Shown piece after piece: positions 2-21,537 of a stretch of 36,379 nucleotides of DNA. The notes under the pieces were generated by a model. That model was not told the origin of the DNA and ran no database searches. It saw only the letters and a program-made list of their open reading frames with translations. The stretch comes from an uncultured Bacteroidales bacterium (GTDB taxonomy: Bacteria; Bacteroidota; Bacteroidia; Bacteroidales; Bacteroidaceae): positions 1-36,379 of the forward strand of contig CADCIP010000033.1 in the NCBI GenBank assembly GCA_902801485.1, given 5' to 3'. The position numbers were made by a program, and so were the translations under genes. Each line of letters starts with the position of its first letter. The stretch's first letter is position 1.

Positions 2-1738
2 AACTATTATAGCGATCATCCTGAGATCGGGTTCTACTTGAACCACCCCCTGATGGCTCGTATCGTTGAGCTGAAAGAAAAGGGTTTCGCTGATGCGAAG
101 GAATATGACTACGCCCCTGTTGACCTGGGCGATGCTATTGAGAACTACAAGCAGATTCTCGACATCACCGGCGACGTGGCTGCCAATATCATCGAGCCAA
201 ACTCTGAGGCTGTTGACCTCGAAGGTCCGCACCTTGAGAACGGCCGTATGATCTACGCCTCTAAGACTTACGAGAACCTCGATGCCACCCGTAAGGCTGG
301 TCTGTGGGGTGTCTCGATGCCCCGTCGTTACGGCGGTCTGAACCTGCCTAACGCCGTGTTCTCCATGCTCTCTGAGATGATTTCGGCTGCTGATGCCGGT
401 TTCCAGAACATCTGGAGTCTGCAGTCGTGTATTGACACCCTGTATGAGTTCGGTAGCGAGGAGCAGCGCCAGAAGTACATCCCACGCGTTTGCGCCGGTG
501 AGGGTATGAGTATGGACCTCACGGAGCCCGATGCCGGTTCTGACCTGCAACGAGTGATGCTGAAGGCCACCTTCGACGAGAAGGAGAATTGCTGGCGCCT
601 GAACGGCGTGAAGCGTTTCATCACCAATGGTGACTCTGACATCCACCTTGTGCTGGCTCGTTCTGAGGAAGGTACCAAGGACGGACGTGGTCTGTCTATG
701 TTCATCTACGACAAGCGCCAAGGTGGTGTTGATGTTCGTCACATCGAGCACAAACTGGGTATCCACGGTTCACCCACCTGTGAGCTCACCTATAAGAACG
801 CTAAGGCAGAACTCTGCGGAAGCACTCGTCTGGGTCTGATCAAGTACGTGATGGCGCTGATGAACGGTGCCCGTCTGGGTATCGCCGCTCAGAGTGTAGG
901 TGTTGAGCAGGAGGCTTACAACGAGGGGTTGGCTTATGCCAAGGAGCGTCAGCAGTTCGGCGACAAGATTATCAACTTCCCCGCCGTATATGACATGCTC
1001 AGCCGTATGAAGGCTAAGTTGGATGCAGGCCGTAGCCTGTTGTACGAGACAGCCTGCTACGTGGATATCTACAAGGCACTTGAGGATATCGAGCGCGACC
1101 GCAAGCTTACCCCCGAGGAGAAGCAGGAGTGCAAGAAGTACAGCCGTCTGGCTGATGCCTTCACCCCACTGGCCAAGGGTATGAACTCCGAGTATGCCAA
1201 CCAGAATGCCTACGATGCCATCAGCATCCACGGTGGTTCAGGTTTCATCATGGAGTACAAGAGCCAGCGCCTGTTCCGCGATGCACGTATCTTCTCTATC
1301 TACGAGGGTACCACTCAGTTGCAGGTTGTTGCTGCTATCCGCTACATCACTAACGGCACCATGCTTGCCAATATCAAGGATATGCTCGCAGAGCTTAAGA
1401 ACTCTCAACTCTCAACTCTCAACTCTCAACTTCTTGAGAGAATCGAGAGATTGATTCCCGTTTACGAGGAGGCGCTTGCCAATGTGAAGGCACTGGAGAA
1501 TCAGGATGCCCAGGACTTCCTGGCCCGTCGTCTTTACGATATGACTGCCGAACTGGTAATGAGTCTGCTCATCATCCGCGATGCCAGCAAGGCTCCAGAA
1601 CTCTTCGAGAAGAGTGCCAACGTATATGTTCGCATGACCGAGGAAGATGTTTATGGTAAGAGTGCTTACATCAAAGCCTTCCGCGTAGAAGACCTTGAGA
1701 ACTTCCGTGCTGTTCAGAAAGAAACCGAAGAAGCATAA
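2..1738 (+). CDS. Acyl-CoA dehydrogenase, 5' end cut by window
   Basis: FAD-dependent oxidation of acyl-CoA thioesters to enoyl-CoA in the cytoplasm, normally passing electrons to electron transfer flavoprotein. The frame is open from base 2 (visible start NYYSDHPEIGFYL), so the true ATG lies just outside the window; the in-window TTG at 38 is internal. About 578 residues are visible: N-terminal helical part, middle beta domain (MDLTEPDAGSD near visible residue 165) and C-terminal helical domain with IHGGSGFIMEY and IYEGTTQLQ, whose Glu (about visible residue 435) is the usual catalytic base position. A C-terminal extension of about 130 residues follows, as in the longer Bacteroidetes members. 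A five-unit heptamer array (1400-1434) encodes [11 protein letters not shown] at the start of that extension. In related genomes this gene usually follows etfAB, which would lie off the left edge (inference). Confidence 0.93.
   Translation, partial: NYYSDHPEIGFYLNHPLMARIVELKEKGFADAKEYDYAPVDLGDAIENYKQILDITGDVAANIIEPNSEAVDLEGPHLENGRMIYASKTYENLDATRKAGLWGVSMPRRYGGLNLPNAVFSMLSEMISAADAGFQNIWSLQSCIDTLYEFGSEEQRQKYIPRVCAGEGMSMDLTEPDAGSDLQRVMLKATFDEKENCWRLNGVKRFITNGDSDIHLVLARSEEGTKDGRGLSMFIYDKRQGGVDVRHIEHKLGIHGSPTCELTYKNAKAELCGSTRLGLIKYVMALMNGARLGIAAQSVGVEQEAYNEGLAYAKERQQFGDKIINFPAVYDMLSRMKAKLDAGRSLLYETACYVDIYKALEDIERDRKLTPEEKQECKKYSRLADAFTPLAKGMNSEYANQNAYDAISIHGGSGFIMEYKSQRLFRDARIFSIYEGTTQLQVVAAIRYITNGTMLANIKDMLAELKNSQLSTLNSQLLERIERLIPVYEEALANVKALENQDAQDFLARRLYDMTAELVMSLLIIRDASKAPELFEKSANVYVRMTEEDVYGKSAYIKAFRVEDLENFRAVQKETEEA
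1400..1434 (+). repeat. Heptamer array (AACTCTC)x4 plus one degenerate unit, in coding sequence
   Basis: Four perfect AACTCTC units and a degenerate fifth (AACTTCT) make 35 nt inside the acyl-CoA dehydrogenase gene. They are read in frame as [11 protein letters not shown]. The same unit on the sense strand of the GH95 gene gives the identical peptide. A degenerate intergenic relative lies at 1855-1882. Confidence 0.9.
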
Positions 1739-1764
1739 CAGGCAAAGGTAAACATCAGATAAAA

Positions 1765-1799
1765 AAGTGGCGACCCCTTTATTGGAGCCGCCATTTTTG
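1765..1799 (+). terminator. Rho-independent terminator after acyl-CoA dehydrogenase
   Basis: GTGGCGACC and GGAGCCGCCAT form an imperfect hairpin followed by TTTTTGTTG, 30 nt past the stop codon. The A-run on the other side could make it work in both directions. Confidence 0.75.
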
Positions 1800-1854
1800 T
1801 TGTTAGAGGTTCTGATACTCTGTAACAGCTAAGACGTCAGCATTACACGTGTAT

Positions 1855-1882
1855 AACAGACAACTGTCAACTTTCAACTATT
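1855..1882 (+). repeat. Degenerate AAC-type heptamer array, intergenic
   Basis: AACAGAC, AACTGTC, AACTTTC and AACTATT follow one another in 7-nt register. They look like a decayed member of the AACTCTC family found in the neighbouring coding genes. Confidence 0.5.
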
Positions 1883-20845: not shown

Positions 20846-20872
20846 GTGTATTTTTGTCTTTTTTAGACAGGA

Positions 20873-21391
20873 TTATTCGAGGGGTTTCAGGGGCGGAAGA
20901 GGTTCTATCTTCCATTCGGGCGTATAGTCGTGCTCCAGATTGACGGTACCGAACTGTATGCCGGGAATCTTTATGGGACCGGCCTTCAGGGGAATGATGG
21001 TCTCTTCGTACTCGGTAATCTCCACCTCGGCAAAGCCCAGGCGGACGATGCCCAGGATACGGGCTGCAGCAATGCTGAGGTCGATACAGTACTTGCCGCC
21101 AAAGGGCCCCCTGTCTGTTACGCGGACAATAACCTCGCGTCCGTTATTGATGTTCTTTACTCTGAGGCGAGTGCCAAAGGGAAACGTGCGATGAGCGCAT
21201 GTCAGGCTGTCGCGGTGGAAGCGTTCGCCGTTGGCAGTAAACCGTCCGTGAGCATTGTACCACGAAGCTTTTCCGGTGAGGACTTTCGGTGATTTCTCCG
21301 GTATGGAATCGGACGATAACGTTAACGATAACGTTAACGGGAACGATAACGTCAACGATAACGATAACGGTAAAAACAGACTGCATTTCAT
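20873..21391 (-). CDS. rlpA: RlpA-like double-psi beta-barrel protein, probable septal peptidoglycan enzyme
   Basis: 172 residues from ATG 21391; an upstream TTG (21445) in the same frame is less likely. After a signal sequence the double-psi beta-barrel domain covers about residues 38-130: GKASWYNAHGRFTANGE, AHRTFPFGTRLRV, VRVTDRGPF and IDLSIAAARILG. RlpA proteins bind or cleave denuded glycan strands at the septum; the Glu, His and Asp of NGE, AHRTF and VTDRGPF match the conserved positions. No SPOR domain is present. Unusually, residues 8-26 (PLSLSLTLSFPLTLSLTLS), the hydrophobic core of the signal peptide, are encoded entirely by a hexamer array. No lipobox is seen, unlike classical RlpA. 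The GH43 gene follows after 27 nt on the same strand. Confidence 0.85.
   Translation of the reverse strand: MKCSLFLPLSLSLTLSFPLTLSLTLSSDSIPEKSPKVLTGKASWYNAHGRFTANGERFHRDSLTCAHRTFPFGTRLRVKNINNGREVIVRVTDRGPFGGKYCIDLSIAAARILGIVRLGFAEVEITEYEETIIPLKAGPIKIPGIQFGTVNLEHDYTPEWKIEPLPPLKPLE
21315..21368 (-). repeat. Hexamer array (GATAAC/GTTAAC)x9 coding a signal peptide core
   Basis: Nine units: GATAAC, GTTAAC, GATAAC, GTTAAC, GGGAAC, GATAAC, GTCAAC, GATAAC, GATAAC. On the minus strand they read TTATCG/TTAACG codon pairs, giving Leu-Ser and Leu-Thr repeats. The same hexamers lie upstream of GH95 (6176-6205). Confidence 0.92.
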
Positions 21392-21502
21392 AGGCCCAAT
21401 GTCTTTTACGGAGTGCAAGTTCGTTTTTTTTCCTTTAAAAGCCAAATAATTTGACGTTTTTTTCGTTGAACATTGTTACTTTTAGTTGACGAGTTGTTAG
21501 AA

Positions 21503-21537
21503 TTATTAATTGTTAATTGTTCATTATTAATTGTTAC
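21503..21537. repeat. Intergenic heptamer array (TTGTTAA-type)x5
   Basis: TTATTAA, TTGTTAA, TTGTTCA, TTATTAA and TTGTTAC, exactly 35 nt, lie just upstream of the promoter of the SGNH/MBOAT operon. Being non-coding and AT-rich they may act as an upstream promoter element (inference). Confidence 0.85.

Follow-up and report, generated by a model that had tools for sequence, protein, structure and literature searches.

Short tandem arrays in a rumen Prevotella relative, many with AAC anchors and with an excess at five

Introduction

Long simple sequence repeats (SSRs) with units of 5 to 11 bp were reportedly surveyed in prokaryotes in 2007, when an excess of heptamers was found and polymerase slippage was proposed; neither the number of anchoring triplets nor ends bounded by such triplets is known to be part of that description. 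The tandem heptamers of Calothrix are named STRR. They are mentioned in a paper that describes dispersed GGGAATC and GGGGA(T/C)T heptamer repeats in Xanthomonas and Nostoc, which lie on both strands and have only some unit positions conserved (PMC4692102). According to the same paper, the repeats of both genera prefer four units, are G-rich and are tied to G-quadruplex formation, to which the preference for four units was linked, their function being unknown; in two Xanthomonas strains they are intergenic in 89% and 93% of cases (PMC4692102). Direct repeats of another heptamer, TAACTGA, occur in marine Beggiatoaceae, Cyanobacteria and five Bacteroidetes; unsplit sets of 2 to 6 copies in the main genome number 68, 40, 19, 2 and 1, a steady fall, and most of the repeats are found shortly before a start codon, in forward orientation (PMC4679880). 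Short heptamer arrays are already known in bacteria, including some Bacteroidetes. The statement in an initial annotation of the present DNA that no description was known was therefore too strong, as dispersed heptamer arrays have been published (PMC4692102, PMC4679880).

Our window is the whole analyzed stretch of 36,379 nt (contig CADCIP010000033.1), which we compared with other sequence of its genome (G000), with a sister genome (G061) and with other genomes. The source organism is a rumen bacterium related to Prevotella, and its genome holds many tiny repeat arrays. A frequent form consists of about five AAC triplets, here called anchors, at a spacing of 6 or 7 bases. These arrays resemble the Xanthomonas and Nostoc repeats in the 7-nt unit, its partial conservation, the dispersal, the mainly intergenic location, the occurrence on both strands and a preferred number, but differ from them in that most AAC units lack a G-tract, spacings of 6, 7 and 8 occur, and 32 of 125 arrays lie in coding calls (PMC4692102). 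The four G-tracts of a G-quadruplex were not found, AACTCTC, AACATTG, AACGAT and similar units having no GGG on either strand; a minority of units contain CCC (e.g., AATCCCT and AACCCCT). Since G-poor arrays with units of 6, 7 and perhaps 8 nt have a similar preferred number, a cause independent of G-tracts may be needed. With the TAACTGA repeats, the arrays share an AAC-containing heptamer, many short sets, an admixture of related 7-mers and occurrence in some Bacteroidetes, but they show an excess at five anchors and lack a clear orientation bias (PMC4679880). Here, other units dominate and both orientations occur, with 65 intergenic arrays in tandem gaps, 15 in convergent gaps, 8 in divergent gaps and 5 at edges. 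The Calothrix heptamers are alike in having heptamer units of several types per genome; anchor counts are not comparable (PMC4692102).

Results

The initial annotation had named five "pentads" of five 7-nt units each, together with longer, decayed and hexameric relatives. All of the named arrays are present at the positions given, and the window contains the following:

1400..1431, plus strand: AACTCTC array with five AAC anchors at spacing 7; lag-7 length of 32 nt
1855..1879, plus strand: decayed intergenic AAC array with four anchors at spacing 7
4452..4495, minus strand: AACTCTC array with five exact AAC anchors and an imperfect extension, in a GH95 family gene; lag-7 length of 44 nt (imperfect)
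6175..6202, plus strand: intergenic hexamer array, (AACGNT)x4+AAC, with five anchors at spacing 6, between the GH95 and alpha-L-fucosidase genes
6203..6228, plus strand: octamer-like array of the TCTTTTAA type, adjoining the hexamer array at 6175..6202
6234..6257, plus strand: decayed CTAACCT array that abuts the end of the alpha-L-fucosidase ORF and has three AAC anchors
12400..12430, minus strand: AAACCGT array with AAC/AAT anchors at spacing 7, in an AcrB-type transporter gene; lag-7 length of 31 nt
12456..12479, minus strand: short hexamer array of the AACGAT type, also in the transporter gene
16940..17088, plus strand: long degenerate heptamer tract of the AACAGCC type, in a 226-aa ORF
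19437..19531, minus strand: AAATGGT-type compound array with periods of 7, 15 and 30, in a GH43 gene
20144..20178, plus strand: degenerate array, AAC-GAC-AAC-AAC-AAC, at spacing 7 with unlike spacers
21313..21373, plus strand: long hexamer array (AACGNN) in an ORF with a match to Pfam DPBB_1 (lytic transglycolase); nine exact AAC anchors
21501..21536, minus strand: intergenic AACAATT array with five AAC/AAT anchors at spacing 7; lag-7 length of 36 nt

The common length of 35 nt ascribed to the pentads is a choice of reading and not a measured constant, because the four called lag-7 lengths differ, and the array at 20144, which has five anchors (one mutated to GAC) and 73% matches in TRF, was not called by the lag-7 scorer even at a threshold of 9. 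The count of five fared better: read as AAC/AAT anchors at spacing 7, the pentads hold 5, 5, 6, 5 and 5, and the hexamer array annotated at 6176 has five anchors at spacing 6, whereas the relatives at 1855, 6234 and 21315 depart from it with 4, 3 and 9. One of the six anchors at 12400..12430 lies in the flank, and AAC is on the antisense strand of the gene. The array at 19437..19531, with three anchors, lies outside the five-anchor reading.

The gene that carries the array at 1400..1431 encodes an acyl-CoA dehydrogenase, and the surrounding stretch, which varies in length, belongs to the Pfam AcylCoA_dehyd_C match; similar arrays occupy the equal position in three other rumen loci (L043, L068 and L100), and the sister locus L029 has none. 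The sister genome shares the arrays at 4452..4495 (99% flank identity, equal length), 6175..6202 (at L170), 12400..12430 and 21501..21536 (identical), while the array at 19437..19531 is about 60 nt shorter there. The 226-aa ORF adjoins a gene for a sigma-70-type, probably ECF, factor.

Beyond the window, the short arrays are genuine and well above chance expectation. Period-7 arrays number 125 in 836 kb, a density of 150 per Mb, whereas the other periods from 4 to 12 reach 4 to 31 per Mb. Exact period-7 runs of at least 10 matched bases occur 50 times in 436 kb, whereas three order-3 Markov simulations averaged 0, and exact runs at periods 5, 6, 8, 9 and 12 number 1, 14, 4, 10 and 24 in 436 kb. 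As in dispersed heptameric SSRs, tandem 7-nt units are scattered genome-wide far in excess of chance and are mostly non-coding: 93 of the 125 arrays fall within the 10.6% of the sequence that a crude ORF caller left as non-coding, and about a quarter are in coding calls. Array units repeat among sites about 14 times as often as random heptamers would, exact AACTCTC arrays occur at numerous sites, and AAC is present in 53% of 118 collapsed units versus 28% of random intergenic heptamers. Each unit contains one AAC in about half of the arrays of heptamers and in most of those of hexamers.

Array length is variable, with 32 nt as the most frequent value, and the histograms speak against the fixed 35-nt output that had been proposed: exactly 35 nt was found in 0 of 125 arrays in 836 kb, in 2 of 160 in 1.127 Mb of the present genome and in 7 of 128 in the sister. 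We also rejected a fixed total of about 32 nt, as a minimum of homology for recombination might have imposed, since the hexamer arrays of G061 are most frequent at 27 to 28 nt.

We then counted non-redundant AAC chains in samples of the two sister genomes, AAC having been chosen as the anchor only after inspection of the data. Pooled over spacings 6, 7 and 8, chains of 3 to 8 anchors number 110, 44, 59, 10, 3 and 4. No geometric law fits these numbers at 4 to 6 anchors, where the fit expects 56, 35 and 22 against the observed 44, 59 and 10, and 0 of 20,000 simulated geometric sets reached the observed share of five. An order-4 Markov control gave 0 or 1 chain of at least four anchors per spacing. 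Numbers fall off beyond five anchors at spacings 6 and 7, and at 8 on small numbers, intergenic sequence included; the anchored architecture is thus not confined to a unit length of 7. The annotated peak at five holds for AAC anchors pooled over the two sisters, but not for G061 alone at spacing 7, where chains of 3 to 6 anchors number 28, 18, 13 and 2 and fours exceed fives, nor for the present genome at spacing 8, which has zero chains of five, all such fives being from G061. Whole-genome pattern counts of five-anchor chains spanned 0 to 723 in 120 genomes, with no match in several congeners; the present genome has 146 chains of at least five anchors, six not being separable from longer. G301, sampled in little sequence partly picked by AACTCTC matches, has 4, 2, 0 and 2 chains of 4 to 7 anchors at spacing 7, and chains of 3 to 6 anchors in other rumen loci number 4, 2, 1 and 0, on few chains. 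Five is not a universal stop, as long runs occur in other Bacteroidales (G022 and G372) and some long arrays in the present genome.

These distributions bear on ordinary SSR dynamics, that is, gradual slip-strand expansion and contraction of 6- to 9-nt units with no special number, under which the mode near 32 nt would be the point at which growth, contraction, frame constraint and decay balance out. We regard this explanation as possible but somewhat doubtful. It agrees with the whole-unit differences, inheritance and decay that are all seen, with the long arrays of the present and related genomes, with exact runs whose counts drop steadily as length rises, and with the fact that a 7-nt unit in a coding region cannot keep the frame with a step below +21 nt; heptamers are also said to be over-represented across many bacterial genomes (PMC4692102). 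The drop beyond five anchors and the recurrence of units argue against it, as do simulations with planted geometric arrays, in which the 22- to 28-nt class exceeded the 29- to 35-nt class in 15 of 16 settings (18 and 20 in the exceptional setting, q 0.8 and mutation 0.1), whereas 26 and 46 arrays were observed. A detection artefact was dismissed because the planted arrays failed to reproduce the peak. In this respect the initial annotation was supported: units differ while their number agrees, and unit recurrence, simulations and AAC chains all depart from simple slippage from random seeds.

The ends of the arrays were examined in arrays called without choice of an anchor and having one AAC in the consensus. 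At spacing 6, 22 of 31 start at its A or one base earlier, and 16 of 31 end on the C of AAC; at spacing 7, 36 of 109 end one base past AAC, with 4 in each of two other phases, and the start phases lack a sharp peak (23, 12, 20, 10, 9, 19 and 16). Within intergenic hexamer arrays, mismatch is 0.02 to 0.03 in AAC versus 0.07 to 0.27 in spacers, and in many arrays the spacers vary between units while AAC is constant. Mismatches cluster by column significantly in a generic test, as mixing of two unit variants also predicts.

More uniform anchors in hexamer arrays and a number preferred across spacings could also result from selected binding sites, with five AAC half-sites serving a ring-shaped or oligomeric protein that binds single-stranded DNA or RNA and tolerates spacings of 6 to 8; the triplet sites of TRAP are the model. 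We consider this very unlikely. Substitutions between the sisters at 18 sites affect 3 of 192 AAC, 6 of 245 spacer and 20 of 1177 flank positions, AAC not being clearly more conserved; arrays lie inside coding sequence too, several congeners lack matches, and arrays between tandem genes display no clear orientation bias relative to the flanking genes (32 sense, 43 antisense). A site acting at the RNA level was dropped in view of the same orientation counts.

A stop codon on some strand is present in 80 of 93 intergenic arrays; among random intergenic heptamers the share is 57%. Between tandem genes, sense-only and antisense-only stops number 24 and 8. We draw nothing from this regarding all-frame stop signals, since ORF calling itself favours such a result: an array that lacks sense stops is read as coding. 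A GC-rich palindromic motif lies within 60 nt of 9 of the 93 intergenic arrays, versus 67 of 2000 random intergenic places; seeding by such elements would explain at most a few arrays.

Comparison with the sister genome showed that the arrays are mostly inherited, as an array was also present there in 99 of 142 paired records. Some sites differ by whole units, and the insertion or templated-synthesis process proposed initially remains conjectural. Where lengths differ, the difference is a multiple of 7 in 19 of 62 cases, above the roughly one in seven expected by chance, and is not in 43; for period-7 arrays with differences of at most 70 nt, the figure is 12 of 29. Whole-unit variation between related genomes, a trait of dispersed heptameric SSRs, is thereby present. 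At L264:18490 of the present genome, a five-anchor array at an ORF start stands opposite the two-anchor site AACGCTCAAC of G061 L270 and is exactly 21 nt longer, in frame; L179:19387 and L178:4797 are at +21 and +14 relative to the present genome.

Orthologue alignment yielded one clean difference, a 30-nt block of five hexamers at L181:16221 with a 2-nt microhomology, for which gain and loss are alike possible. No AAC seed is visible in the sister at this block, and among the 24 genomes searched for an outgroup none but G061 itself could be aligned through the site, the others matching the coding part on one side or, elsewhere, the other side. Otherwise, of the 43 records in which the array is absent or weak, the 25 that were listed are mainly replacements or whole-unit differences rather than clean empty sites, and no target duplication beyond 2 nt was seen. 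We consider it unlikely that arrays or array composites were copied from one place to another by recombination or mobile activity, in a cassette-like or ectopic manner; these last two observations speak against it, and most array flanks among those listed are unrelated by eye. Such copying would fit the 30-nt block, the exact AACTCTC arrays at many sites, the flanks shared next to certain hexamer arrays of G061, a unit switch at one site with the number kept (L013:10867 versus L176:8981), and one variable stretch that is occupied, depending on the species, by AACTCTC or AAGAGTG arrays or by a proline-rich palindromic insert.

Discussion

Our preferred explanation for the arrays is growth by slippage at AAY microhomologies. 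Many of the dispersed short arrays rest on AAY anchors, chiefly AAC, that recur every 6, 7 or 8 nt. In the mechanism that we propose, the growing strand would re-anneal at an AAY lying by chance 6 to 8 nt from another AAY, the interval would be copied anew, and the cycle would be repeated until about five anchors stood in a row. Arrays would persist where an insertion harms little, as in intergenic gaps, variable linkers and protein starts, and would be inherited, later change by whole units and decay through point mutation. We give in-place growth by slipped re-annealing up to about five anchors nearly, but not quite, an even chance; it would take the sister differences as growth rather than loss, slipped re-annealing as their cause and AAY as the microhomology. 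The facts that we counted against it include the seedless block at L181:16221, the unit switching, the length differences that are not multiples of 7, the start phases without a sharp peak and the long runs elsewhere that go beyond five.

Slippage with exact copying would not give variable spacers and a constant AAC, although mixing of two unit variants could. A candidate DNA synthesis activity of set processivity in some Bacteroidales, which would prime on AAY, add 6, 7 or 8 nt, realign at the next AAY and halt after about four rounds, appears quite improbable; if real, it would produce five-anchor arrays of 27, 31 or 35 nt with spacers free to vary. Sister species in which seeds, extended arrays and block differences can be compared offer a way to test how such arrays arise. 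The arrays also account for recurrent odd peptides, of the NSQLSTL type, in the proteins of these bacteria.

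Arrays of 7-nt units in the source genome

The arrays of short units reported in the window by the initial annotation were recovered by Tandem Repeats Finder and direct lag comparison. The source genome (G000) is a 3.6-Mb draft of 85 contigs, 85% complete, in which runs of 30 to 60 nt should be correctly assembled. When window 1400-1900 was used as a query against G000, 52 matches including self were obtained, nearly all of them to the AACTCTC array. Period 7 gave 50 exact runs of 10 or more matched bases in a 436-kb sample, made up of the window and 400 kb of stretches, with none expected from an order-3 Markov simulation. 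Other periods yielded 1 (period 5), 14 (6), 4 (8), 10 (9) and 24 (12) runs, and the 42 and 41 runs at periods 14 and 21 were taken as echoes of period 7. Array density reached 149.5 per Mb at period 7, next to 3.6, 4.8 and 21.5 at periods 4, 5 and 6, and 17.9, 22.7, 3.6, 7.2 and 31.1 at periods 8 to 12. Our gene calls came from a crude ORF caller that leaves 10.6% of the sequence non-coding, and this fraction held 93 of the 125 arrays above threshold in 836 kb. The array units are not random: the probability that two arrays have a common unit was 0.0223 (neighbours collapsed), compared with 0.0015 for random intergenic heptamers (20 sets, maximum 0.0029).

The arrays had been proposed to arise with a fixed output of 35 nt, which the lengths contradict. 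They were broadly spread with a mode at 30-33 nt, and exactly 35 nt was found in 0/125 arrays in 836 kb of G000, 2/160 in an enlarged G000 sample and 7/128 in the sister genome G061. In 15 of 16 settings with planted and mutated geometric arrays, the class of 22-28 nt outnumbered that of 29-35 nt; the observed arrays numbered 26 and 46 in these classes, respectively. Exact runs alone fell steadily in count with length, partly because imperfect arrays form the majority. Many hexamer arrays of G061 measured 27-28 nt, i.e., (AACGNN)x4+AAC, some of them with common flanks.

Number and position of anchors

We counted chains of evenly spaced AAC triplets (anchors), taking sites with near-identical flanks once, in samples covering 31% of G000 and 23% of G061; AAC was picked post hoc, after inspection of the data. 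Pooled over spacings 6-8 and both genomes, chains of 3, 4, 5, 6, 7 and 8 anchors numbered 110, 44, 59, 10, 3 and 4, whereas an order-4 Markov control gave 0 or 1 chain of at least four anchors at each spacing.

AAC chains by number of anchors (n = 3/4/5/6)
Intergenic, spacing 6, G000 and G061: 12/7/15/0
Coding, spacing 6, G000 and G061: 29/5/4/2
Intergenic, spacing 7, G000 and G061: 30/18/21/6
Coding, spacing 7, G000 and G061: 16/8/12/0
Intergenic, spacing 8, G000 and G061: 9/5/7/2
Coding, spacing 8, G000 and G061: 14/1/0/0
G000, spacing 6: 33/5/9/0
G000, spacing 7: 28/16/24/4
G000, spacing 8: 15/6/0/0
G061, spacing 6: 16/8/17/2
G061, spacing 7: 28/18/13/2
G061, spacing 8: 9/1/7/2

The preference for five thus held in part: counts dropped after five in every class holding fives, but the peak at five was missing in some classes. 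Four of the five named pentads (window 1400, 4460, 12398, 20144 and 21503) read as five anchors, while one carries a sixth in its flank; elsewhere, the array at 6176 has five anchors, but those at 1855, 6234, 19438 and 21315 do not read as five. With the anchor relaxed to AAC or AAT, the step after five is weaker but still present (n=4/5/6/7: 57/58/19/8 at spacing 7 and 19/20/4/2 at spacing 6). AAC was the commonest anchor with n of at least 4 at spacings 6 and 7, but not 8, in both first samples; in the enlarged G061 sample, AAT was more frequent at spacing 7.

One AAC per unit was found in 115/217 heptamer, 34/43 hexamer and 16/30 octamer non-redundant arrays. These arrays ended on or beside the anchor more often than at other phases, and they also started there at spacing 6 and weakly at spacing 7, the numbers at spacing 8 being small. 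Taken together, the surplus of AAC, the tendency to end on the anchor and the fall in counts beyond five suggest that arrays may reiterate in place by re-annealing at AAY microhomology (Y, C or T) for a limited number of rounds. We propose such reiteration tentatively, its probability approaching an even chance without reaching it. Within genes, frame constraint would help, as two anchors plus three units (+21 nt) would make five anchors; it cannot explain the intergenic hexamers.

Comparison with the sister species

Among the named records listed, the closest relative of the acyl-CoA dehydrogenase of the window came from a sheep-rumen MAG (L029, G061; 96% protein identity), followed by rumen Prevotella and Xylanibacter. 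Long aligned stretches of G061 shared mostly 89-98% DNA identity with G000, and G061 was therefore used as its sister species. With both flanks located, 142 directional records, in which one site is countable from both sides, had the array in both genomes in 99 cases, weak in 16 and absent in 27. The length difference in the 99 was zero in 37, a non-zero multiple of 7 in 19 and another value in 43; for period-7 arrays differing by at most 70 nt, 12 of 29 differences were multiples of 7. At L264:18490, a five-anchor array of G000 faces the two-anchor AACGCTCAAC in the sister, a difference of exactly 21 nt that is in frame and close to the start of an ORF reading MNMKTIITLFVALSFLQLPLNSKPSTLNSQLNQGYP. 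Other whole-unit differences were found at L179:19387 (21 nt), L178:4797 (14 nt), L025 (14 nt) and L150:15690 (7 nt). Inheritance combined with whole-unit differences argues for slippage-like change in place, which we read as growth, loss being equally possible from a comparison of two genomes. The length differences and their unpolarised direction weigh slightly against in-place reiteration, in favour of plain repeat dynamics, a real if somewhat doubtful contender, and of ectopic copying of arrays, which we consider unlikely.

Other sites differed otherwise. Five hexamers (30 nt) in L181:16221 are missing as a block from L024 near 3859, with 2-nt microhomology, and an outgroup search for this block gave no outgroup match spanning the site. 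At one site and in one register, L013:10867 (CAATTCT) and L176:8981 (CAATGTT) differ in unit at about equal unit number. The window 1400 array is missing from the sister, where that stretch differs; similar arrays occur in L043, L068 and L100, and its place is taken by an AAGAGTG array in L054 and L093 and by a proline-rich insert in L095.

This acyl-CoA dehydrogenase stretch (window 1380-1470; loci L029-L115) is hypervariable, with 19-31 residues between fixed motifs. Its inserts differ among rumen species and are of three unrelated kinds. At another orthologous site, a heptamer array in G000 (L012:9386-9422) faces a CTCACCCCTAACCCCTCTCCC-type palindromic element in the sister (L177:13220-13275), whose left arm has, by eye, a loose 7-nt period. 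In a tract of some 117 nt present in G000 but not in the sister (L252:4430-4550), copies of TTGAAC stand 2 or 3 nt apart, giving a constant anchor with a non-constant period.

Mismatch to an array's own consensus was 0.026, 0.026 and 0.018 at the anchor A, A and C of intergenic hexamers (other positions, 0.069, 0.267 and 0.083), and 0.032, 0.041 and 0.079 in intergenic heptamers (others, 0.130, 0.214, 0.046 and 0.101). At 18 equal-length G000/G061 sites, arrays differed at 13/618 bases and flanks at 20/1177; anchors differed at 3/192 and spacers at 6/245. On these small numbers, the comparison of the sisters gave no clear indication that anchors are under selection. That the arrays are selected binding sites appears highly improbable.

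Distribution and published heptamer repeats

Of 295 genomes of the order, 9 from several families contained three exact AACTCTC units, G000 being one of them. The five-AAC pattern at spacing 7 was found in 82 of 120 genomes including G000, with matches per genome ranging from 0 to 723; G000 had 361 matches versus 48 to the backward-read pattern, but in several relatives this control was as frequent or more so. Much longer runs were present in some relatives (G022 and G372). The six-anchor pattern had 215 matches throughout G000 versus 23 in the sampled 31%, so the rest of G000 is richer in long arrays. We therefore limit the preference for five to the G000/G061 pair, in the 31% and 23% samples. 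Some congeners had many five-anchor and few six-anchor matches (G361, 47 versus 5; G374, 72 versus 16; G363, 27 versus 6).

The initial annotation knew no description of the process that it proposed for the pentads; dispersed heptamer arrays had already been published. PMC4692102 describes GGGAATC arrays in Xanthomonas that are mostly intergenic, have four units most commonly and conserve only part of the unit positions, and states that detailed literature focused on heptamers is lacking; according to PMC4679880, TAACTGA arrays occur in Beggiatoaceae, Cyanobacteria and five Bacteroidetes. In searches of mainly open-access literature, no relevant paper was found on Prevotella heptamer arrays, and no match listed described an anchor number common to different unit lengths. 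Matches to the unit string and the peptide concerned other subjects only.

Neighbouring motifs and other repeats

In-gene arrays often adjoin a YDLxGR- or IYN-like motif (L145:1421, L139:2938, L217:228 and L215:14718), which may correspond to one known from type IX secretion C-terminal domains. Alternating arrays of periods 6, 7 and 8 are clustered at L153:1781-2010, where short recurring joints such as GAGTCAGTTTA part them, and at L202:7020-7500, L149:9560-9720 and L027:12790-13050. An element roughly 60 nt long (L219:19940-20000) is dispersed in G000, with several matches at 93-98% identity. In an intergenic gap of the window, a GTGTCA-type 16-nt repeat pair (15567-15598) has its reverse complement at 15705-15735, with an AT-rich stretch between the arms (15567-15741 overall), and 11-nt tandem repeats (CGGTATGGGTT and others) lie at 1984-2076, downstream of the acyl-CoA dehydrogenase gene.
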